DNA of 64,000 nucleotides. It comes from Prochlorococcus sp. AG-409-L21. Its GTDB lineage: Bacteria > Cyanobacteriota > Cyanobacteriia > PCC-6307 > Cyanobiaceae. The notes beneath the pieces are model-generated. The model was not told where the DNA came from. It saw only the letters and a program-made list of their open reading frames with translations, and searched no databases. Position numbers and translations under genes: made by a program. Shown here one piece after another: positions 34,120-44,495 of the stretch; position 1 is the first letter of the stretch, and the number at the start of each line of letters is the position of its first letter. Location of the stretch: the NCBI GenBank assembly GCA_003215475.1, contig QCKH01000003.1, forward strand, positions 62,001 to 126,000. Reading direction: 5' to 3'.

Positions 34120-34746
34120 TTGACAGTGGTGCCAATTTCCGAAGAGACGCTAACTTCAGCTCAGAAAGAGCTTTATGACTGGTTGGCTGACTATATAAAT
34201 ACACATCATCATAGCCCTTCTATTAGGCAGATGATGCAGGCTATGGGGCTTCGTTCTCCCGCACCCATTCAAAGCAGATTGCGTCACCTTCAGGAGAAAG
34301 GTTGGATAAAATGGCAAGAAGGTCAAGCTAGGACCTTGCAGCTATTAGGTGATTTTGTTTCAAGGGGTGTTCCTGTTCTTGGTGCTATAGCCGCTGGAGG
34401 TCTAGTCGAAACTTTTGATGATATTCAAGAAACGCTGGATTTTGATCATGTACTTAAGACTCGAGGCTTGTTTGCATTGACAGTTAATGGAGACTCAATG
34501 GTTGACGCTTATATTGCTGATGGTGATGTTGTTTTAATGGAGCCAGTTCAAGAACCCTCTAGAATAAAAAATGGCACTGTGGTAAGCGCAATGGTTCCGG
34601 GTTCTGGAACTACTTTGAAGCATTTTTATAGAGAAGGTTCTTTAGTAAGACTAGAAGCTGCTAACCCTTCATATGAGCCTATAGAGATTTCAGCAGAAGA
34701 CGTACAAATACAAGGCAAGCTTCTTGCTGTATGGCGTCAAACCTAA
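34120..34746 (+). CDS. lexA: LexA repressor
   Basis: SOS regulator and self-cleaving S24 protease. The winged helix at the N terminus has ADYINTHHHSPSIRQMMQAMG and QSRLRHLQEKGWIKW. The cleavage site is the Ala-Gly bond in AIAAGGLVE. The catalytic dyad is Ser125 (NGDSMVDAYI) and Lys167 (TTLKHFY), numbered from TTG 34120. Both are present, so autocleavage should work, unlike LexA of some cyanobacteria that lack it. GTG 34126 or 34129 are alternative starts. It is the last core gene before the accessory region. Confidence 0.94.
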   Translation: MTVVPISEETLTSAQKELYDWLADYINTHHHSPSIRQMMQAMGLRSPAPIQSRLRHLQEKGWIKWQEGQARTLQLLGDFVSRGVPVLGAIAAGGLVETFDDIQETLDFDHVLKTRGLFALTVNGDSMVDAYIADGDVVLMEPVQEPSRIKNGTVVSAMVPGSGTTLKHFYREGSLVRLEAANPSYEPIEISAEDVQIQGKLLAVWRQT

Positions 34747-34883
34747 AAGTTTAATTAGCTTTTGGAATATATAAATTATATTTGAGATTAGAAAAAATTA
34801 TTGAATAATATTTTGTGCTTTATATGGAAGAAGTTTTGATCTAATAAAAAAATTACTTGATTGCTTCTTAAGAATTTTAAAAC

Positions 34884-35948
34884 TTAATTAGTTGAATCAA
34901 AAATAGATTTAAGCTTATATTTGTGATCATTAATTAATCTCTCATCCCAGTAATCAAGCAAATAGAAATGCTGATTTTCTATATTGCAGGACCATGGAGT
35001 TAGTTTATTCTTGCTATATCTCCTTTCCACTCCAAGTGCTTTTGCTATTAATATGTATGGTGTTGCAGAGAATAAAGCCGGCAGTATAATTCCACCACCT
35101 CTTAATTGTATAATTAAACTAGAAGACACAAGCAAACCTGCATCGAATAAGAAATCATCTTCTTTACTTATATCTTTCGAGTACATTAATCTGTAGTTAT
35201 CTTCTGGCTCAATAGATTTAAAGTAATTACATCCCAATATGTCTGAGACAAGAAGTATTGGGACATCTTTGAAATTATTAAATAAATAATCTCTAATTGA
35301 TATAAACTCGTTTTTACTAGTGTCTCTTTCTGATTCCTCACCTCCTGTATACCTACATACCCAGGTAATATATTTTTTGCCGTAAAGTGGATTTGTAGAA
35401 TGTGTTAAATCACCTAAGGATTTATTATTAATGTAGAAGTTATTATCTGAACTTAAAGGCTTTTCTTTATTGAATCTTACTATAAGCTCATAATAATATA
35501 GATAAGAAGGGACTTTATTTACTATAAAGCTCTTAAAAAGAATATTTTTACTACTCTTATATTGGGCTATAAATTCATTAAAGTTCAATTTTTCAAATTT
35601 GAATGAGTAATTTCTTAAGAGTGTGTTAAGGACATTTATTAAATCATCCTCTGCTACGTCATTCTCGTTAGTAACGCCACTCGATAGAAAGATAATTTTC
35701 ACACTCTGGCTTCTAAATATAATTACTTTGGCAAGCATACAGAAATAAATAAAGTCTCCATATCTATTGGAGGCTGTATAGCTATCGTAAACGAGAATTT
35801 TTTCGTTATCTTTTATACCCTTTAAACTGATGTATTCGACAATACCTATATACCTTCTTCCTAAATAATTTAAAGCTCTTCTTATACGTACAGAGTTAAC
35901 TTTTGAGATGACTTTGATAGGCCATAATTCAATGATATCTTTTACCAT
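34884..35948 (-). CDS. Unknown protein, possible glycosyltransferase-like (GT-B)
   Basis: Not recognised with confidence. 354 residues from ATG 35948; an in-frame TTG at 35963 is possible. The N-terminal half has alternating hydrophobic strands (KILVYDSYT, VKIIFLSSG). The C-terminal half has ITWVCRYTGGEESERDTS, VPILLVSDILGC and SSSLIIQLRGGGIILPALFSATPYILI. The last resembles the donor-binding end of two-domain glycosyltransferases and polysaccharide-modifying enzymes. Its strand, A+T-rich codon use and neighbours place it in surface-polysaccharide synthesis. Stops 137 bp after lexA on the opposite strand. Confidence 0.6.
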   Translation of the reverse strand: MVKDIIELWPIKVISKVNSVRIRRALNYLGRRYIGIVEYISLKGIKDNEKILVYDSYTASNRYGDFIYFCMLAKVIIFRSQSVKIIFLSSGVTNENDVAEDDLINVLNTLLRNYSFKFEKLNFNEFIAQYKSSKNILFKSFIVNKVPSYLYYYELIVRFNKEKPLSSDNNFYINNKSLGDLTHSTNPLYGKKYITWVCRYTGGEESERDTSKNEFISIRDYLFNNFKDVPILLVSDILGCNYFKSIEPEDNYRLMYSKDISKEDDFLFDAGLLVSSSLIIQLRGGGIILPALFSATPYILIAKALGVERRYSKNKLTPWSCNIENQHFYLLDYWDERLINDHKYKLKSIFDSTN

Positions 35949-35977
35949 AATTCTATCAGTCAAATAATAAGCTATTT

Positions 35978-37090
35978 TTATATGTATACGTTAATGTTAT
36001 TATTTCTAAGCCTATTAAAGATATCTTTGGAGTTGCTAAGAAATTTAGGAATAATAATCTTTTGATCTTTTATATCATTTATCTCCAGAACTATTTCTCC
36101 TAGGAACTTTTCATCTCCTTGAACATAATCTTTAGCAAACCCAACTTTCTTTTCAACTTGATGAGCAAGTAATGAACTATCAATTCCTGTGCCGAAAATT
36201 AGTCCTATATCATTTTCTTTCATTAATTTAGATTGATCTTTATAAATATTCCAAATTTTCTCCTTCTCATTTTTGATTGAAAATTGAGGATTATTAGTGA
36301 ATTCAGTATTTATCTTGCTTGGTAATGATTTACTTCCTATGACAATAGTTTCGTAGGGATGGTTTGGTAAAAAACCTGCTTCAATTAAATTATAGCCTAG
36401 ACTTTGAAGTAGCTTAGACTTTCCAGATATCGATGGATTGCTAATACAATCATCATAAAATAGTGTGGCGGGTCTATTTAGAGGGTTTTGACTAACAATG
36501 ATTATATTCTTTACATTTTCAGGATATGATTTGATAGCTGATATAAATTCTGAGTAGTCGGTCAAAACAAGAGCGTGAGAAGCTATTAGTAGATCTATGT
36601 GATTATTTTCTAAGGTTTCTGTAATACTTCCATACCACTTATAGCCATAATTGATGTCTTTAAAAAGCTCGATTTCTACTCCGACCTCTAACTCTGTATC
36701 ATATAAATTCTTCATAGCAGAAAGTAACTCTCCATTATTAGCTCCAAACTCACATATATTTTTAGCCCCTTGCATAAGGCTATGCCTGTCTATAGCATTT
36801 AAAATTTGAATATTTCTATGTGATAACGAATTAGGTAATTCTCCTTTCAGTTCTGTTTTGCTAGTTATTAAGTCAGAACTTGCTTTTGTTGGAAATCTAT
36901 CTAACTTTATGTAATCTGGATCTATAAATGAGGGAATGTTCTTATCAAGTCTAAAAATAGAGTTGCAACTATCACATATTGCATATATTTTCTCATTATG
37001 TATAAGCTGAAAATGATGATGATCTAAACCTAAATCGCTAATATGCTCTTCTCTTATCTCCTTGTTCCCACAAAATATGCAAGCTGTCAT
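35978..37090 (-). CDS. Zinc-finger SAM-dependent methyltransferase, C-methyltransferase-like
   Basis: The 370 residues follow the layout of sugar C-methyltransferases. An N-terminal zinc-binding part has CIFC and CDSC. A SAM domain has motif I NICEFGANNGELL (about residues 111-123) and DLLIASHALVLTDY. A C-terminal domain (about 270-370) looks like the Methyltransf_14 nucleoside-binding part, with LIFGTGIDSSLLAHQ in place of the usual GYGAAAKGN. It may methylate a nucleotide sugar, but the core is diverged from the clear example at 57734-58990. ATG start. Next gene in the same direction is the unknown protein at 34884. Confidence 0.65.
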   Translation of the reverse strand: MTACIFCGNKEIREEHISDLGLDHHHFQLIHNEKIYAICDSCNSIFRLDKNIPSFIDPDYIKLDRFPTKASSDLITSKTELKGELPNSLSHRNIQILNAIDRHSLMQGAKNICEFGANNGELLSAMKNLYDTELEVGVEIELFKDINYGYKWYGSITETLENNHIDLLIASHALVLTDYSEFISAIKSYPENVKNIIIVSQNPLNRPATLFYDDCISNPSISGKSKLLQSLGYNLIEAGFLPNHPYETIVIGSKSLPSKINTEFTNNPQFSIKNEKEKIWNIYKDQSKLMKENDIGLIFGTGIDSSLLAHQVEKKVGFAKDYVQGDEKFLGEIVLEINDIKDQKIIIPKFLSNSKDIFNRLRNNNINVYI

Positions 37091-37312
37091 TTATCAAAAA
37101 TTAGTAATCTAAAAAATACTATAGCATATTAAACAAATTTACCCTGGTAACTTTAGCTTATTAATGTTATTGTAAAATAATTTTGTGAATATTTTTTTGA
37201 AGTGAGAATTGATAAATAATTAAAACCCTTCTATTTAAAGATGAAGGATCTATATAATTCGAATAAGAAGTATTATTTAGCAAAGAAACTTGATATTTAT
37301 ACTGCTATGACA

Positions 37313-37810
37313 TTATATACTATTAGTCCATATGGTGTCATTGTCTTCAAATTTACCACTAGATATTTCAAGGAAAATTGAATCATCACTATTTGTTATT
37401 ATCCTTCTAAATATATTTTTAGGAATTGATAACATAGACAAATAATTATTTTGCGTGCTTTTAGCTTCACTAGATAGTTTGTATTCTCTTGTTCTATCTG
37501 ATGAAAGTATTATATCTATTTGCCCTTTTATAACATAGTAAAAAACTATTCCACCTTTAGGTTGGCAATGCCAATTAATAACTTGTGGATAATTATGAAA
37601 AATAACCATTTGTTGTAAAGCTGAATCATTATCAGAATGCAAGCAATACCTAAATTGTCTGATCCCCAGTTCCCGTGATTCCTTTTGCATGGCTGCTAAT
37701 TCTTCCTGAAGCAATTGCGAAGGCAATTCATTTGCTTGCCAAACTCTTTCATTCAATACTTTGCTTTTGCTGATGTTGGGAAAACTTTTAGAATTATTTC
37801 TTATATTCAC
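37313..37810 (-). CDS. WbuC-like cupin
   Basis: 165 residues. The core (RYCLHSDNDSALQQMVIF, WHCQPKGGIVFYYVIKGQIDIIL, LSIPKNIFRRIITNSDDSIFLEI) follows the small WbuC cupin family found in O-antigen clusters, in which a single beta-barrel binds metal. The metal ligands are only partly visible: an early His in WHCQPKG is kept, while a second His is less clear. The catalytic role of WbuC proteins is not known. GTG start. 222 bp of A+T-rich spacer separates it from the methyltransferase downstream. Confidence 0.65.
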   Translation of the reverse strand: MNIRNNSKSFPNISKSKVLNERVWQANELPSQLLQEELAAMQKESRELGIRQFRYCLHSDNDSALQQMVIFHNYPQVINWHCQPKGGIVFYYVIKGQIDIILSSDRTREYKLSSEAKSTQNNYLSMLSIPKNIFRRIITNSDDSIFLEISSGKFEDNDTIWTNSI

Positions 37811-37982
37811 TTTGTATAATTAAATTTTGTACCTTGATCATATAACAGATATGCTCGAAATTGATTAATTCTCTAATTAAGTTCTTTTCAATAAGAATAG
37901 GATTCCAGAACTAATCATATGAAAAACTTGATAAATCAACAGTAATGATATTCAATTGCAATTATTTTTCTTTTAAATCTGT

Positions 37983-38759
37983 TTAGATCTTTACTAACAT
38001 TGTAAACTCCATACTAATACGCGACTTGCTACCTTTATTTAATGCCCCACCATGTAGCAGGTCATCATGAAATACTATTACCTCACCCGGGGATCGATTA
38101 ATTAGCTGAGGGTTTAAATCAGATAAATTTGTATGTAGAACTGGTTTTTGTATATTATCTCTAAGTTCTCCTGACCATTTAATATCTTTCCTTTTATGTG
38201 AGTACTCCTCTAATAACAATCCATTTAAGCCAGGTTCAGTAATAATAGCTATCCACACTTTTATTCTCTTGAAATTGTAAGGCGGCCTTTTAAAGGATTT
38301 ATTTAGTTTCCAGAACCAAGAATCTCTATGTAGAGGTCCAATATCACTGGTTTGGTTTGGTCTTACTATACGCCAATAAAAGTTGGGCCAACCAAAGTGC
38401 TCTTCATCGGAAACGCTAAATTCTCCAAAATCTTGCTCTAATTTCTTGTAGAAGGATGTATTTGAAAACCAAGGTTCAAAACTTGGAGGAAGAATCCTAG
38501 AGACTTTGCTCCAAATATTTTTATTTTTAAGTTTATTCGAAATTAAATGATAATCTTCTAAGTCTATATCGTTTTCGTGAATGTAGGCTAGCAATTTTGC
38601 ATCCTCGACTTGTAACCTATAAATCCACTGATCTTTAATAAAAGTCTTTAGAATATTTAGATCCTCGATACATAATTTATAAGATAAGTCATAGCCTTTT
38701 TCTAATAAGGAAACACATGGATCAGTATTGATGGTTTTAGTATACGAATTATTTAACAT
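37983..38759 (-). CDS. Phytanoyl-CoA dioxygenase (PhyH)-like 2-oxoglutarate/Fe(II) oxygenase
   Basis: The double-stranded beta-helix core shows the iron triad: PLHRDSWFW (HxD) and the distal His in FHDDLLHGGALNKG. The following Arg in SRISMEF would bind 2-oxoglutarate. The N-terminal 90 residues are helical. 258 residues from ATG 38759; a GTG one codon earlier exists. PhyH-like enzymes in polysaccharide clusters hydroxylate small molecules or lipids; the substrate is unknown. It faces away from tRNA-Ala, across a 198-bp A+T-rich gap. Confidence 0.78.
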   Translation of the reverse strand: MLNNSYTKTINTDPCVSLLEKGYDLSYKLCIEDLNILKTFIKDQWIYRLQVEDAKLLAYIHENDIDLEDYHLISNKLKNKNIWSKVSRILPPSFEPWFSNTSFYKKLEQDFGEFSVSDEEHFGWPNFYWRIVRPNQTSDIGPLHRDSWFWKLNKSFKRPPYNFKRIKVWIAIITEPGLNGLLLEEYSHKRKDIKWSGELRDNIQKPVLHTNLSDLNPQLINRSPGEVIVFHDDLLHGGALNKGSKSRISMEFTMLVKI

Positions 38760-38901
38760 CACTGTTATTTTTTATATATATTACAAAGATCTATAGAAAT
38801 TATCTTCAGTATAATCTTTACTGTTACAAAGGCCTATATATAGTACTTTGTAGCTTAGATATAAAAGTCTATATAAGTTTCCTTTAGACTATCTTGACCA
38901 G

Positions 38902-38957: not shown

Positions 38958-39030
38958 GGGGCCATAGCTCAGCTGGTAGAGCACCTGCATGGCATGCAGG
39001 GGGTCAGCGGTTCGAGTCCGCTTGGCTCCA
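38958..39030 (+). tRNA. tRNA-Ala (anticodon GGC)
   Basis: A full cloverleaf can be drawn. Acceptor GGGGCCA pairs with TGGCTCC, with one G-U pair, and A is the discriminator. The D arm is GCTCAGCTGGTAGAGC, the anticodon arm is CCTGC-ATGGCAT-GCAGG with anticodon GGC, and the T arm contains GGTTCGAGTCC. The 3' CCA is not encoded as an addition. The anticodon arm is a perfect palindrome of CCTGCAT and ATGCAGG around GGC (38984-39000). A T-run follows and may terminate transcription. Two partial copies of this gene occur at 42847-42885 and 44375-44408. Confidence 0.97.
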
Positions 39031-39067
39031 TTTTTTTTATGATAATATATTATAAATTTAAAAAAAA

Positions 39068-40921
39068 GTGAGTTTTATATTAGGCATCTCAGCTTATTAT
39101 CATGACAGTGCTGCGACTTTAGTTAAGGATGGTGAAATATTAGTTGCTGTTCAAGAAGAAAGATTTTCAAGAAAAAAACATGATTCAAGTTTTCCTATAA
39201 ATTCCGTTCGTTATTGTCTTAAATCACAAAAAATTGATCTAAATTCTATTGATTATATTGTTTATTATGAAAAACCACTTTTAACATTTGAACGTCTTTT
39301 AGAGACTTATTTAGGGACTGCACCAAGAGGTGGAAGATCCTTTATCGCTGCAATGCAAATATGGTTAAAAGAAAAATTATTTTTAAAATCAGAACTTAAG
39401 AAACAATTTAAATTTTTACATAAAGAATTTGTGAAAGGTGATAAGACCTATTCACCAAATTTGCTTTTTGCTGAACATCATCAGTCCCATGCAGCCGCCG
39501 CCTTTTATCCAAGTCCTTTTGAAAAGGCCGCAATACTGTGCATGGATGGAGTAGGAGAGTGGGCTACAACATCTGCTTGGATTGGGGAAAACAATAAACT
39601 TAAGGCCTTATGGGAAATTAGTTTCCCTCATTCTTTAGGACTTTTATACTCTGCATTCACTTATTATTGCGGCTTTAAAGTAAATTCAGGAGAATACAAA
39701 TTGATGGGTTTAGCACCTTATGGTAAGCCTAAATATGTAAATATTATCAAAGAAAATCTTATAGATATTAAAGAAGATGGATCATTTAGATTAAACCTAA
39801 GTTACTTTAAATATCATCGTGGATTTAGAATGACGAGTACTAAATTCAACAAGATTTTTGGGGCTCCTCCTAGGAAAAGAGAAAAAGAACTTACGCAATT
39901 TCATATGGATTTAGCAGCTTCTATACAATTAGTTACAGAAGAAATTATTATAAAGTTAGCTAAATCGCTTCGTAAGGAAACAGGCCTCCAAAAGCTTTGT
40001 CTTGCTGGAGGGGTAGCACTTAATTGTGTTGCCAATGGAAAACTTTTAAAAGAAAAAATATTTGACGATTTATGGATACAACCTGCGAGTGGTGATGCTG
40101 GGTCTTCATTAGGAGCAGCATTAATTGGATGGCATGAATGGATGAATAAAGTGCGAAAAATTAATCCAAATGATTCTATGAAAGGCACTTATCTTGGATG
40201 TGAATTTTCTAATAGTGAGATTATTGATTACTTAAAAAATATAGATGCCCCTTTTCAGACAATAGATGATGATAATCTTTTTCAAAAGCTTGCTAGTTTT
40301 TTAGATGAAGGGAAAGTAATAGGTTGGTTCAATGGAGCAATGGAATTTGGGCCTAGAGCATTAGGGGCAAGATCAATTATTGGAGATCCTCGCAATCAAA
40401 AAATGCAAAGTACAATGAATTTGAAAATAAAATATAGGGAAAGTTTTCGTCCCTTTGCACCTTCTATATTAGAAGAAAGTGTTTCTACTCAGTTTGATAT
40501 GAATTGCAAAAGTCCCTATATGCTTTTAGTTGCTCCTGTAAAAAAAGAATTATGTAAAAATTTGACCAAGGATCAAAAAAACTTATTTGGCATCGAGAAA
40601 CTTAATATTCCAAAATCTTCACTTCCCGCCATAACTCATGTTGATTATTCAGCGAGAGTTCAAACAGTTAGTGAGAGAACTAATCCACGTTATTACAAAT
40701 TAATCAGTGCCTTTAGGGATAAAACAGGTTGTCCCACGATTATTAACACCTCATTTAACGTAAGAGGAGAACCAATTGTTTGTACCCCTCAAGATGCCTA
40801 TCGATGTTTTATGAGAACGGAAATGGACGTACTTGTTTTACAAAATCAGCTTTTATTTAAATCCGAACAGCCTAAAATTGAAAAAAAGGAAAAATGGAAA
40901 CAGGAGTTTGAGCTTGATTAA
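39068..40921 (+). CDS. Carbamoyltransferase (NodU/CmcH/SxtI family)
   Basis: Transfers a carbamoyl group from carbamoyl phosphate, through carbamoyl-AMP, to a hydroxyl of a sugar or small molecule. The N-terminal Kae1-like domain has SAYYHDSAATLV, EERFSRKKHD, the metal-binding AEHHQSHAAAAFY and CMDGVGEW. The C-terminal YrdC-like domain has GPRALGARSIIGDPR, INTSFNVRGEPIVCTP. 617 residues is normal. GTG start 37 bp downstream of tRNA-Ala. Followed within 2 bp by an SxtJ gene and then a DUF5989 gene, the same order as sxtI-sxtJ-sxtK. A surface glycan or lipid is the likely acceptor here. Confidence 0.93.
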   Translation: MSFILGISAYYHDSAATLVKDGEILVAVQEERFSRKKHDSSFPINSVRYCLKSQKIDLNSIDYIVYYEKPLLTFERLLETYLGTAPRGGRSFIAAMQIWLKEKLFLKSELKKQFKFLHKEFVKGDKTYSPNLLFAEHHQSHAAAAFYPSPFEKAAILCMDGVGEWATTSAWIGENNKLKALWEISFPHSLGLLYSAFTYYCGFKVNSGEYKLMGLAPYGKPKYVNIIKENLIDIKEDGSFRLNLSYFKYHRGFRMTSTKFNKIFGAPPRKREKELTQFHMDLAASIQLVTEEIIIKLAKSLRKETGLQKLCLAGGVALNCVANGKLLKEKIFDDLWIQPASGDAGSSLGAALIGWHEWMNKVRKINPNDSMKGTYLGCEFSNSEIIDYLKNIDAPFQTIDDDNLFQKLASFLDEGKVIGWFNGAMEFGPRALGARSIIGDPRNQKMQSTMNLKIKYRESFRPFAPSILEESVSTQFDMNCKSPYMLLVAPVKKELCKNLTKDQKNLFGIEKLNIPKSSLPAITHVDYSARVQTVSERTNPRYYKLISAFRDKTGCPTIINTSFNVRGEPIVCTPQDAYRCFMRTEMDVLVLQNQLLFKSEQPKIEKKEKWKQEFELD

Positions 40922-40923
40922 TT

Positions 40924-41322
40924 ATGAAAGAAAACATTTCAGAAAGGAAACTAAGAGAATTTGGATTACTAATTGGATTAGGGATTCCGATTATTATTGG
41001 ATGGCTTATTCCAGCAATTTGGGGGCATCTTTTTAGAGTATGGACTTTATGGATAGGTATTCCCTCATTAATTTTGGGAATAATAAAGCCTAATACTCTT
41101 TTTTATTTTTATAAAGCATGGATGGCACTCGGCCATGCTCTAGGTTGGTTAAACAGTCGTATTATTCTTGGATTGGTTTTTCTTATAGTTCTACAACCTA
41201 TTGCTTTGGTTATGAGGTTTTTTGGTCATGACCCTCTCAGACAAACTAAAAATGCAATAAATGAGAAATCCTTTAAAGAAATAAAGAAAAATCATAGAAT
41301 TGATTTGACACGTATTTTTTAA
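40924..41322 (+). CDS. SxtJ family membrane protein
   Basis: 132 residues with three to four hydrophobic helices (LLIGLGIPIIIGWLIPAIWG, LWIGIPSLILGIIKP, IILGLVFLIVLQPIALVM). A conserved-looking tail has MRFFGHDPLRQ. SxtJ proteins accompany carbamoyltransferases widely, but no activity is known; an anchor for the carbamoyltransferase at the membrane is my inference. ATG start 2 bp after the carbamoyltransferase stop. Confidence 0.82.
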   Translation: MKENISERKLREFGLLIGLGIPIIIGWLIPAIWGHLFRVWTLWIGIPSLILGIIKPNTLFYFYKAWMALGHALGWLNSRIILGLVFLIVLQPIALVMRFFGHDPLRQTKNAINEKSFKEIKKNHRIDLTRIF

Positions 41323-41325
41323 CAA

Positions 41326-41487
41326 ATGAATGATTTTATAGATTTAATAAAGGATATTTGGGACTTTCTAAAAGTTCGTAAGAAATATTGGTTAGCCCCT
41401 TTGATTGTTACTATTGTCCTAATGGGTGCACTAATTATTTTTACACAAGGATCCGTAGTAGCCCCTTTGCTATATTCCATATTCTAG
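41326..41487 (+). CDS. DUF5989 family small membrane protein (SxtK-like)
   Basis: 53 residues starting MNDFIDLIKDIWDFLKVRKK, then YWLAPLIVTIVL and one transmembrane helix, ending SVVAPLLYSIF. This matches DUF5989, the third member of the carbamoyltransferase-SxtJ-DUF5989 triad and the counterpart of SxtK. It starts 3 bp after the SxtJ stop, so all three genes form one translational unit. The amphipathic basic head suggests contact with a cytoplasmic partner. It is too short for many gene finders, and a longer out-of-frame stretch at 41388-41582 can mask it. Confidence 0.85.
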   Translation: MNDFIDLIKDIWDFLKVRKKYWLAPLIVTIVLMGALIIFTQGSVVAPLLYSIF

Positions 41488-41561
41488 GAAATTCAAGAAA
41501 GATATTTTTATTCTTTGTCAATTATAAGTTCTATTTAAAGTTGTTACATAACAACTTTAGA

Positions 41562-42668
41562 CTATTTTTGTATAACTCTTAGTATTTCTTCGGCCATTAC
41601 CTTGTTTCCGTATGGACCTAAATGTATGAAATCAAGAAAGATATTTTTTCGACCATTTAACCAATCAGTTGCATTGATAAAAGCGGCGCAGAAATCCTTA
41701 TCCTTTTTACAAATTTTTTCGACCTCTTCCAATATCAATGGATAAACAACTTTAAATTGCTTTTTAAGTTCAAATAGATTTTTCTTTTCACTTGGGTGAA
41801 AATACTCGAAATTTGTATTAGTTGTGAATAAAGTTGGTTGAAGTATTGCATAAAACTTTGCATCACGGGACCTTGATATCAAAAATGCTGAATGCCAGTT
41901 GGTTGCTAAGTGTTGAGCTATTAAGCGTGCTTTGTTTTTATCATTATTACAGTTGTAAAAAGATTGTCTTGAATCTGAGGCAGGAGAATCCTTGTTTAAC
42001 TTATAAGCAATAGCTTTGTAAGGTGCAAGAATAAAGTTTTTCAGTTTAGATTTTAATAATCCTCGCTTGAATATTTTTTGGATTTTAGCTTCACGAGCAT
42101 GTATCGGTATCGATGATATTTCAGTTCTACAGTAATACCCAACATCGTTTCCCCCATCATAAAATATTACAAATGAAGGCATATTTTGATCAGCAATCAC
42201 AGTGATTAACTGGTTCAAAGATTGCCTAGAAGTCCAACCAACATCACCAAAATTGTAAACAGGAATGTTTGTTATTGAGTTGTAGTAGCTAGGGATTGTT
42301 TGATAATCTGAAACTCCATGACCAAAAATTGTAGATCCACCAAAAAACCATGTTGAGCCGTTAATTCGCTCCCCGCTTGATTTTCTGGTGTTATATGGCC
42401 CACCGATATTTATAAACTGTGATTCAAGCTTACTAGTCTTCCAACCAATAAAACTCTTATATTCTGCATCAGTTTTTTTTTCATCATTCCAAACTTGTAT
42501 TGCAAAGTTCTTATTTTCATATGTTGGGTAAAATGCACGCTTATCAACTGTATCCAAATTTGCACGTGCTGTTTTTATCCTGTGCAATCGATAAAGTAAA
42601 CTAGGGGTAAGGAATAAAGCTGTCAGAACTGCCAGGTTGATTGATAAAACTCTAAATAAATTTTTCAT
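41562..42668 (-). CDS. SGNH/GDSL-type hydrolase family protein with N-terminal membrane anchor
   Basis: 368 residues. Residues about 6-26 are a hydrophobic anchor. The SGNH blocks are visible: FFGGSTIFGHG (block I-like, with Ser), a Gly in VYNFGDVGWTS, FVIFYDGGNDVGYY (block III Asn) and DFIHLGPYGN (block V Asp and His). Such proteins hydrolyse or transfer acyl esters on glycans. Hydrolases of this type are frequently encoded beside the carbamoyltransferase-SxtJ-DUF5989 triad, here convergent to it (74 bp between stops). I infer a role in the same surface modification. ATG start. Confidence 0.82.
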   Translation of the reverse strand: MKNLFRVLSINLAVLTALFLTPSLLYRLHRIKTARANLDTVDKRAFYPTYENKNFAIQVWNDEKKTDAEYKSFIGWKTSKLESQFINIGGPYNTRKSSGERINGSTWFFGGSTIFGHGVSDYQTIPSYYNSITNIPVYNFGDVGWTSRQSLNQLITVIADQNMPSFVIFYDGGNDVGYYCRTEISSIPIHAREAKIQKIFKRGLLKSKLKNFILAPYKAIAYKLNKDSPASDSRQSFYNCNNDKNKARLIAQHLATNWHSAFLISRSRDAKFYAILQPTLFTTNTNFEYFHPSEKKNLFELKKQFKVVYPLILEEVEKICKKDKDFCAAFINATDWLNGRKNIFLDFIHLGPYGNKVMAEEILRVIQK

Positions 42669-43246
42669 TATAAATAGTCAACAAATTTAAAGATTTCTAG
42701 AATTCTTTTTATAGTAAATTATTTATAGTAAAGACCTAAAATATTTAAGAAATACAACTTAACCATGTAACTTAATCCCTGCGAGAAACTCTGCGAGCAA
42801 ATGCTCAAAAATATCTGTAAAACTTAGTTATAGCTTAATTCGTTATCTGCATGCCATGCAGGTTCTCTACCAGCTCATCTATGGCAACAAATTCAAGACT
42901 TTAATTATATCAATCTTTTAAAGATTTTTTTAGAATCGTTGCTAATTTTTCAGTACTTTAAAGGGTTTAATTATTGAATTAATGATCTTAAAATTGACCA
43001 GGAGAATAACAAGTTGTAACATGACTTCTGGAGCTACTTTTAATAAATTCCTACTTTCTTATAAGTTATGTCGGATAAGATTTAAGAAAAAAATAAAGTA
43101 AGATTTTAGTAAGAGTTTCTTTTATGTTATTTCAGAAATAAGTGCCTTTGTAATAGATATTAATTTTGATATTGCAAGTACTTAAAGAATCTTATGCTAA
43201 AAATTTCGAAATAACTACTTCTTTAAAATCTTAAATTAAATATATT
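42669..43246. other. 578-bp non-coding spacer containing a tRNA-Ala remnant
   Basis: A+T-rich and without a credible gene. A 39-residue plus-strand frame (42982-43101, MILKLTRRITSCNM and a basic end) was not accepted. The only recognisable element is the tRNA-Ala 5' half at 42847-42885. A short tandem CTGCGAG repeat occurs near 42779-42800. The spacer is unusually long for this genome. Confidence 0.7.
42847..42885 (-). pseudogene. tRNA-Ala remnant, 5' half
   Basis: On the minus strand this stretch reads GCCATAG, three bases with two changes, then AGCTGGTAGAG and ACCTGCATGGCATGCAG. Thirty-six of 39 positions equal the intact tRNA-Ala from acceptor position 4 through the anticodon arm. Homology stops abruptly on both sides. 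It ends exactly in the palindromic anticodon arm. It cannot be a functional tRNA. Confidence 0.92.
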
Positions 43247-44131
43247 TCAATATCTATTCTTAATTGGAGGCTTTTTACGAGAAATTAGTCTGATTAAATG
43301 TTTTTTAAATTTAAAAAGTTTGTTCTTGAAGGGACTTTTCTTAATCAATGCCTTTAATTGAGATGAGAGAAAGGTTTTCTGTATTAATTCTTTTTCTGAG
43401 ATATTTTCATTGATATTAATATTCCAAGCCTTGACACAATCTCCCTGTTGAGGAATTTTATCAGATGTTGATTCACTTGTTTTTTGTACAGCAATCCAAG
43501 TATCTAGTATTTCAGACCAGCCTCCCATACTTAAATAATCAATGCATCCAGGAGTGTATTCTCTAATTAACCATTTTTTACCTCGTGGCGCTGCATCAAC
43601 CTCAATTAAGTATGATTGAATAATTTTAAAGTTATTAATTTTGTAGAAATCATAAAAGAATTGAGGGCTAAATTGTAAGTAACCATGATCGACTTGATTA
43701 TTGGTTGGGGAACTATGTACAGCTATTCCCCCAACTTTCAATAAATCACAAATGTTCTTTAAAGACTGATTGATATTAAAAATATGCTCAGTTGTACCTC
43801 CGTCAAATACAAGATTATATTTATTTCCGAAATCTTTCGGTAAAGGTTCATTAAAGTTATGAATTATTTCGGAACCTTCGTAATCACTATAATCTAGTGA
43901 AAAAACATTATCAAATCCTAAATAATTAAATAATTTATAAGAATCAATAAATGAATTATTCTTCTCATTAAATTCACATTTTATATTGAATTTCCTTAAT
44001 ATTCTTCTACATTCATAATCTTTTACATAACTATCTTGTTTGCCAAGTTGCAATGAGCTTCCTGAAAAGGGCTCCGGGCATAAATTGTTTAATTCGCACA
44101 AAAGTGAATATGCATTTCTTGTCAGTCCCAT
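43247..44131 (-). CDS. SAM-dependent methyltransferase-like protein
   Basis: 294 residues from ATG 44131 (a TTG four codons earlier is possible). Strands and helices of a class I methyltransferase can be followed: VFSLDYSDYEG, YNLVFDGGTTEHIFN, LLKVGGIAVHSSPTNN and FSPQFFYDFYKINNF. Motif I, which would bind SAM, is weak, so this is a distant member. The C-terminal 60 residues are very basic. Gene and flanks lie inside the segment bounded by the two tRNA-Ala remnants, and it is the only gene there. Substrate unknown. Confidence 0.7.
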   Translation of the reverse strand: MGLTRNAYSLLCELNNLCPEPFSGSSLQLGKQDSYVKDYECRRILRKFNIKCEFNEKNNSFIDSYKLFNYLGFDNVFSLDYSDYEGSEIIHNFNEPLPKDFGNKYNLVFDGGTTEHIFNINQSLKNICDLLKVGGIAVHSSPTNNQVDHGYLQFSPQFFYDFYKINNFKIIQSYLIEVDAAPRGKKWLIREYTPGCIDYLSMGGWSEILDTWIAVQKTSESTSDKIPQQGDCVKAWNININENISEKELIQKTFLSSQLKALIKKSPFKNKLFKFKKHLIRLISRKKPPIKNRY

Positions 44132-44143
44132 TTTGCAAGACAA

Positions 44144-44495
44144 TTATTTTTAATATAATACTAATATTTACGGCTTCTTAGTTAACAATAATACCTATAA
44201 TAACATTTGACTCTTAATCTAATGAATAATAGCACAACGGACGATATCTTAGAAACTGCAATGTGCCTTATACGCCATCAAGAAAGCGCACTATTTTCGC
44301 AATTTACAATTAGTTGTAATCTGTAACGCCTGCTATAGTAATGTGCCTCAACTATTTCTAGCCCTTCATAGTAAGCAGGGATTCAGCGTTTCAAGTCCGC
44401 TGTCTCCATTTACTGAAATTATTAAAAGCACTATTTTATAAACTATAGTGCGTTATCGATCATAATCTTTTTTTTAGAATGGAATCTTTTCGATT
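44144..44495. other. 352-bp spacer with tRNA-Ala 3' remnant and a hairpin
   Basis: No credible gene. It holds the 3' half of a decayed tRNA-Ala at 44375-44408 and, just after it, an inverted repeat GCACTAT/ATAGTGC (44428-44451) that lacks a T-tail. The remainder is A+T-rich and gave no match to known elements by eye. Confidence 0.65.
44375..44408 (+). pseudogene. tRNA-Ala remnant, 3' half
   Basis: From GCAGGG through TCAGCG and AGTCCGCT to CTCCA this follows the intact tRNA-Ala from the 3' side of its anticodon arm to the discriminator, with about five substitutions and one deletion. The T loop reads TTCAAGT instead of TTCGAGT. It begins in the same four bases (GCAG) in which the 5' remnant at 42847 ends. 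The order and orientation suggest the two were once one gene. Confidence 0.82.

Follow-up and report, generated by a model that had tools for sequence, protein, structure and literature searches.

A head-to-head tRNA-Ala junction in a Prochlorococcus island, likely formed by wrong-orientation integration at a palindromic anticodon arm

Results

The tRNA-Ala island and its two tRNA fragments

We analysed a window of 64,000 nucleotides from the genome of Prochlorococcus sp. AG-409-L21 (G000 in our set; 1.34 Mb in 27 contigs, completeness 70%), in which an island with surface-sugar genes lies downstream of lexA (34120-34746). An intact tRNA-Ala(GGC) gene was identified by ARAGORN on the plus strand at 38958-39030. 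Its anticodon arm (38984-39000, plus strand), which reads CCTGC-ATGGCAT-GCAGG, forms a palindromic core by the symmetry of arm and loop, as an earlier note on this DNA had pointed out: the stem is self-complementary at 5/5 positions and the loop at 3/3 around the centre base. Loop symmetry is likewise 3/3 for tRNA-Gly(GCC) (loop TTGCCAA), 2/3 for tRNA-Thr(GGT), and 1/3 for both tRNA-Pro(TGG) (loop TTTGGGA) and tRNA-Arg(TCT). The neighbouring island segment E1 (39031-42779) encodes a NodU-like carbamoyltransferase that scores below the family cut-off (39068-40921, plus), a small protein that appears membrane-bound by eye (40924-41322, plus) and a GDSL-type protein with a match to Pfam GDSL (41562-42668, minus). 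The closest named relatives of the carbamoyltransferase are in Prochlorococcus single-cell genomes, and we noted that the pair formed by this gene and that of the small protein (39068-41322) recurs in the tRNA-Ala island of genome G029 (L142:3390-5644). On the other side of the tRNA, four genes (34884-38762) part it from lexA. The tRNA and lexA lie side by side in G051, G024 and several Synechococcus-like genomes and are apart in G002, G004 and G006 of the same genus. A 5'-type insertion at 34884-38762 would be expected to have left a decayed 5' half beside lexA (34746-34884); none was found there, and no tRNA fragment marks such an insertion.

Two fragments of tRNA-Ala lie beyond E1, as the earlier note had reported. 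A 5' half on the minus strand at 42847-42885 covers tRNA positions 4-42 and is identical to the intact gene at 36/39 positions. A 3' half on the plus strand, previously placed at 44375-44408, proved to extend left to 44363 through a decayed anticodon arm (44364-44378), so that the match at 44363-44408 spans tRNA positions 27-73 at 78.7% identity. When the window was scanned, scores were 33 for the inverted 5' half and 26 for the 3' half, whereas shuffled controls reached at most 13 and 15, respectively (15 queries for each half, scanned over 30001-64000). Both fragments are real and far above chance. No further tRNA-Ala half stood out in the window scan, and an Rfam scan of the window added nothing at either fragment.

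Junction alignment places a copy of the palindromic core at 42847-42861, where the two sides meet head to head; read along the strand that carries the 5' half, its centre base (42854) gives GGC. To the left is an element end that we call X'1 (42780-42846, plus, 67 bp), a sequence that elsewhere, together with the core, joins the 3' half of tRNA-Ala. To the right of the 5' half follow a promoter-side flank (42886-43020, minus), which is similar to the sequence preceding the intact tRNA-Ala in several genomes of genus g17, and the decayed start of a tyrosine-recombinase gene (43021-43170, plus, ~50 codons), which was assigned by DNA alignment to genome G373 and reads away from the 5' half. Next is an ORF of 298 amino acids (43247-44143, minus), listed as cargo, which looks like a methyltransferase by eye and has no Pfam or NCBIfam match. 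A second element end, X'3 (44280-44363, plus), is joined to a core and the 3' half. The order in the window is thus X'1, core, inverted 5' half, flank, recombinase start, ORF, X'3, core, 3' half. No hallmark genes were found between 42847 and 44378, where this ORF is the one listed ORF of at least 60 amino acids. Distant relatives of the ORF share a contig with tRNA-Ala in three g17 genomes, where they lie downstream of the tRNA by ~8 kb (G363:C13), 4 kb (G358:C2) and 38 kb (G399:C2).

Affiliation of the 5' fragment

The 5' half, its flank and the recombinase start match G373 as one block, at 68.5% identity over 346 bp of DNA (L257:5371-5715, E 5e-42), and a second long match of the block is found in G029 (67.5% over 366 bp). 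The G373 match extends 168 bp into a gene for a 439-amino-acid recombinase (L257:5548-6864) with an intact frame, which starts ~136 bp from the 5' end of an intact tRNA-Ala and reads away from it. Since G373 carries a further tRNA-Ala 5' half 13 kb upstream, the recombinase beside its tRNA looks like part of an element that supplied a new 5' half. G029 has a recombinase relic on the 5' side of its intact tRNA-Ala (69 amino acids, 43% identity to the G373 recombinase). The relic in our window is weak as a protein (tblastn E 0.08), and it is the DNA match that carries the assignment. The sequence to the right of the 5' half, hereafter the window arm, matches the arm found on the 5' side in G373 (score 92, z 35.7). 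No match was obtained to the 5'-side arms of G412 (z -0.1) and G055 (z -0.9) or to the 3'-side arms of G289 (z 1.0) and G399 (z -0.7). As the left-side arms of G412 and G055 are missed too, the lack of a match to the right-side arms of G289 and G399 says little by itself; the 5' type is assigned from the matches to G373 and G029 together with the 5' half itself, and not from these misses. By sequence comparison, then, the 5' half corresponds to the end at which a tRNA-targeting mobile element carries its recombinase, here with the recombinase start in decay, in line with the tyrosine-recombinase context that the earlier note had suggested. We considered that the fragment might be a copy of the genome's own tRNA and ruled this out, as the flank of the 5' half is unlike that of the intact gene. 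No recombinase was found at the tRNA-Ala of this 70% complete genome. Full tyrosine-recombinase genes occupy the tRNA-side end in G373, G412, G055, G289 and G399; with Pfam Phage_integrase, the G289 protein falls just under the cut-off and those of G373, G412 and G055 have no match.

Element ends in related genomes

Searches for X'1 and X'3 covered 400 family genomes with at most two candidates scored per genome. X'1 was matched in 13 of them, its own included, a count that is a lower bound and leaves out G267 and G411, though both hold X'1-like ends. Nine of the 12 other genomes, among them G386, have the core after X'1, in some cases with mismatches, and all nine continue as the 3' half of tRNA-Ala; the remaining three (G011, G333 and G370) gave fragment matches without the core. 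The arrangement X'1-core-3' half is also present in G267, in G411 (two copies) and, for a second time, in G029. L093 has a weak match (70%, 54 bp) with neither core nor tRNA half behind it. When six X'1-core-3' half junctions were aligned with the window, positions 42776-42862 were colinear with them and divergence set in exactly after the core. Among the genomes found, only the window has an inverted 5' half after X'1 and core. X'3 was found in one other of the 400 genomes, G267 (85% over 78 bp), where it also runs straight into the 3' half. As the same continuity is seen here, the 3' fragment has the appearance of a normal remnant, and the wrong-way join would appear to concern the 5' fragment alone. 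X'3 may belong to a third element instead of forming the far end of the one that brought the 5' half.

These comparisons bear directly on the history proposed in the earlier note, which envisaged one tRNA-Ala split by inversion of 42847-44374. Its proposal of a crossover in the palindromic anticodon arm, with a head-to-head junction at 42847, agrees with the junction alignment, and the inverted junction and recombinase context likewise stand. We rejected the single split tRNA itself, on three counts. The 3' half has an element end of its own, continuous as in G267; the 5' half is part of another block, whose promoter flank and recombinase start resemble those of G373; and after inversion of 42847-44374 in silico ARAGORN recognised 0 tRNA genes, with 4/7 acceptor pairs that would remain. 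The uninverted form was not found (99 genomes; samples of 400, with few candidates scored per genome). The fragments are largely what the note had set against its own proposal, namely independent pieces with unrelated flanks. Nor does the interval resemble an invertible DNA switch: the uninverted orientation was not found among the relatives searched, and inversion did not restore a working product.

A related history in two steps, in which ordinary integration yielded a second complete tRNA-Ala and the 1.5-kb piece between the palindromic cores was inverted later, would give the same final order, and both the palindromic core and the overlap of the 5' and 3' fragments within the arm are as it requires. 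However, it needs one extra event, its uninverted form was not found in the genomes searched, and X'3 stands in its normal relation to the 3' half. Nor is a tRNA recognised once the sequence is inverted back, although decay could explain this. We regard the two-step history as unlikely.

Recombinases at tRNA genes

All recombinase rows counted in the relatives read away from the tRNA core, the one exception being the uncounted L143, a fragment row with an extrapolated start. At tRNA-Ala the recombinase lies on the 5' side at 14 sites (15 rows, L181 and L267 being one site) and on the 3' side at 5 sites. Eight of the 5'-side sites are beside an intact tRNA, one is beside a 5' half, and five, in a third layout, are beside a 3' half with no adjoining 5' half (G178 twice, G256 twice, G217). 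The 3'-side sites are in G289, G399, a fragment in G267 and the viral contigs L304 and L305. The last two, from IMG/VR, have the core and the tRNA-Ala 3' half followed by a recombinase match and are possibly packaged or free elements of the 3' type. At tRNA-Pro we counted seven recombinases to the left (5') and none to the right (3'); the side counts for Ala and Pro (14/5 versus 7/0) are too few to separate the two. There was one 3'-side case at tRNA-Thr(GGT), one 3'-side case at tRNA-Arg(TCT) and one 5'-side case at tRNA-Arg(CCT). The Thr(GGT) and Arg(TCT) cases indicate that a 3'-side position does not require a fully symmetric loop. The distance from the tRNA end to the recombinase start is ~136-138 bp on either side (G055, G373 and G412; G289, G399 and G267).

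In a tree of 21 recombinases, those at tRNA-Ala form one group with the Thr recombinase as its first branch, and the Arg(CCT) recombinase of our source genome falls among the Pro ones. The 3'-side pair G289 and G399 is nested inside the 5'-side G373 and G412 (support 100/100 and 99/98); the tree was midpoint-rooted, and this group is set off by the other Ala rows. Such nesting suggests that one recombinase lineage probably switched sides at tRNA-Ala.

Census of tRNA halves and head-to-head junctions

For a census of partial tRNA copies we used 46 genomes, hand-picked by genus and completeness of at least 99% from a larger number of such genomes, some of which had been examined earlier. They contain 16 3' partial copies of tRNA-Ala and, in four genomes, seven 5' partial copies; two more 3' copies (G325:C11:152051 and G029:C5:146166) also match part of the 5' side. 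The seven 5' halves end at tRNA position 41-42; among the 16 3' partials, 12 have their first position at 25-29 and the remaining four at 22, 22, 32 and 43. Element and target therefore share a segment in the anticodon arm, as in integrative elements that use this arm. Halves from tRNA-Pro(TGG) were counted separately, as an earlier list with an 84-bit cut cannot show 43-nt halves. Pro 5' halves occur in 7/46 genomes, with eight copies in the fetched loci, and all six that have the intact gene on the same stretch are in direct orientation. A prediction that 5' halves would occur only at palindromic loops failed, as they are also present upstream of tRNA-Pro(TGG) with its loop symmetry of 1/3; 5'-type elements thus need no palindrome. 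We also observed that tRNA-Pro(TGG) arrays can be large, with at least 20 matches in G325 (C9, C11 and C13; intact gene included), and that tRNA-Pro 3' halves are found in both orientations on one contig in G331 (C3) and likewise in G259 (C2).

Head-to-head junctions were sought among 12 Ala and eight Pro 5' halves, a set partly chosen with a 5'-half query and with four of the 12 Ala halves from G217, so that the results are counts and not frequencies. One Ala half and none of the Pro halves has such a junction, and that one is in the window. Its right arm matches the reverse complement of 3'-type ends with scores of 36, 33 and 32 (z at least 16.7); the right arms of the other 5' halves reach at best a score of 18 (z at most 6.2) in the same comparison. 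Two of the 12 Ala 5' halves, that of the window and one in G217, are inverted relative to the intact gene. The G217 copy (G217:C1:866232-866273; L183:4232-4273, minus) is otherwise a normal 5'-half junction. Its flank shares 99% identity over 400 bp with that of one direct copy (L182:3199), and its right arm is the same as in another (L182:8549), as if it had recombined at the tRNA. Among the arms that follow 5' halves, a TTGCAATCACT-like box (at least 7/11 letters) is the best match 21-23 bp from the core in 15/20. The box is common to tRNA-Ala and tRNA-Pro arms (L143, L182, L192, L193, L249-L255) and is a possible candidate for a recombinase or accessory-factor site. The window arm has no TTGCAATCACT-like box at 21-23 bp; at 10 bp it shares a box with several X'1 ends.

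Palindromes of 15-17 bp are classic substrates for template switching or hairpin-mediated repair, and one of that length is present here. An origin of the junction by either process, or by deletion between oppositely oriented tRNA-Ala relics, would involve no recombinase; such islands are rich in decayed pieces, and G217 has a whole 5'-half junction inverted. Against such an origin, the breakpoint keeps the whole core and both arms up to their edges, as a site-specific crossover would, and the joined pieces match the ends of recombinase-bearing elements. We consider it improbable.

Chimeras formed during amplification of single-cell genomes often join inverted pieces at short overlaps. The source genome is as partial as single-cell assemblies are (27 contigs, 70% complete), and four shorter blocks to the right of the island are inverted in the complete genome G002 (C3 131783-132217, 135564-137833, 160880-161341 and 166271-167065), so that an inverted chimera from whole-genome amplification had to be weighed. 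However, the long conserved stretches to the left (C3 60619-96747) and to the right (C3 123560-129325 and 138794-160294) of the island keep a common orientation and order in G002. With one inverted chimera alone, all sequence beyond it on the right would be reversed, yet both sides agree in G002, so that at least two chimeras would be needed. Moreover, G004 shows no inversion of the blocks 135564-136891, 160880-161386 and 166289-167085, although 130308-132218 is inverted there. We regard an amplification artefact as very improbable.

Discussion

Each piece of the junction matches an independent, normally built junction elsewhere, and the partner changes exactly at the edge of the core. In the relatives, recombinases occur beside tRNA-Ala on the 3' or the 5' side, and 3' and 5' halves are found in the same islands. 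We propose, with a probability of roughly 60%, that a 5'-type element inserted antiparallel, by way of the palindromic anticodon arm, into an older tRNA-Ala remnant that held the other, 3' half. The target would have been an older X'1-core-3' half remnant. The recombinase would have exchanged strands around the 7-bp anticodon loop ATGGCAT, and because this overlap is symmetric except for its centre base, the incoming 5'-type element could have paired with the target in the wrong orientation. The expected product, X'1-core-(inverted 5' half) and, further on, core-3' half, has the order seen in the window; the head-to-head product would then have decayed. Read on the 5'-half strand, the centre base at 42854 gives GGC, so this core copy was probably brought in by the incoming end. 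One intact tRNA-Ala(GGC) is kept beside the relic, so no tRNA need have been lost. Pairing in the wrong orientation owing to the symmetric loop is the likely explanation of this one case; with a single head-to-head junction known, dependence on the palindrome is not established statistically.

In site-specific integration an asymmetric overlap fixes the orientation, and a symmetric spacer, as in loxPsym, removes this control so that either orientation can be joined. Such loxPsym sites are engineered, being designed for Cre (PMC10850332), whereas the site here is a natural tRNA anticodon arm. Integrases at tRNA genes often exchange strands around the anticodon loop, and in bacterial and archaeal examples the loop serves as the 7-bp overlap with the stems matching the core sites (PMC8371274, in the part available to us). 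The elements described here share these features and differ from anticodon-loop integrases in general in that only the centre base breaks the symmetry of the 7-bp overlap. The pTN3-like integrases of Thermococcus catalyse inversions; they differ in being archaeal and in that the integrase gene is disrupted upon integration, and a palindromic-loop junction is not described in the accessible portions of PMC5495485 and PMC8371274. Among the matches listed in our literature search we found, in titles and abstract openings, no description of orientation-blind integration at a palindromic tRNA anticodon arm, which may nevertheless be published.

In their host and location these elements are also close to the tycheposons of Prochlorococcus, which were reportedly described by Hackl et al. 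in Cell in 2023. Shared features are marine picocyanobacterial hosts, an island at a tRNA gene, partial tRNA copies and, in the relatives, a divergent tyrosine recombinase beside the tRNA. Integration at a tRNA with a partial copy at the boundary is likewise seen in the core-bounded halves of the window and its relatives; further hallmark genes (replication or satellite) were not found at 42847-44378. In contrast to tycheposons, the relic in the window keeps the recombinase start alone, and its inverted 5' half is head to head with the end of another element. The tycheposon work of Hackl et al. is cited in the available part of PMC10872708.

Site-specific integration is thought to be directional owing to the asymmetry of the crossover segment. 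If a symmetric anticodon loop is used in the way proposed, islands could grow on both sides of the tRNA gene and elements could flip. This could explain how recombinases change the tRNA half on which they depend, and could also explain the reshuffling of cell-surface gene islands in ocean cyanobacteria.
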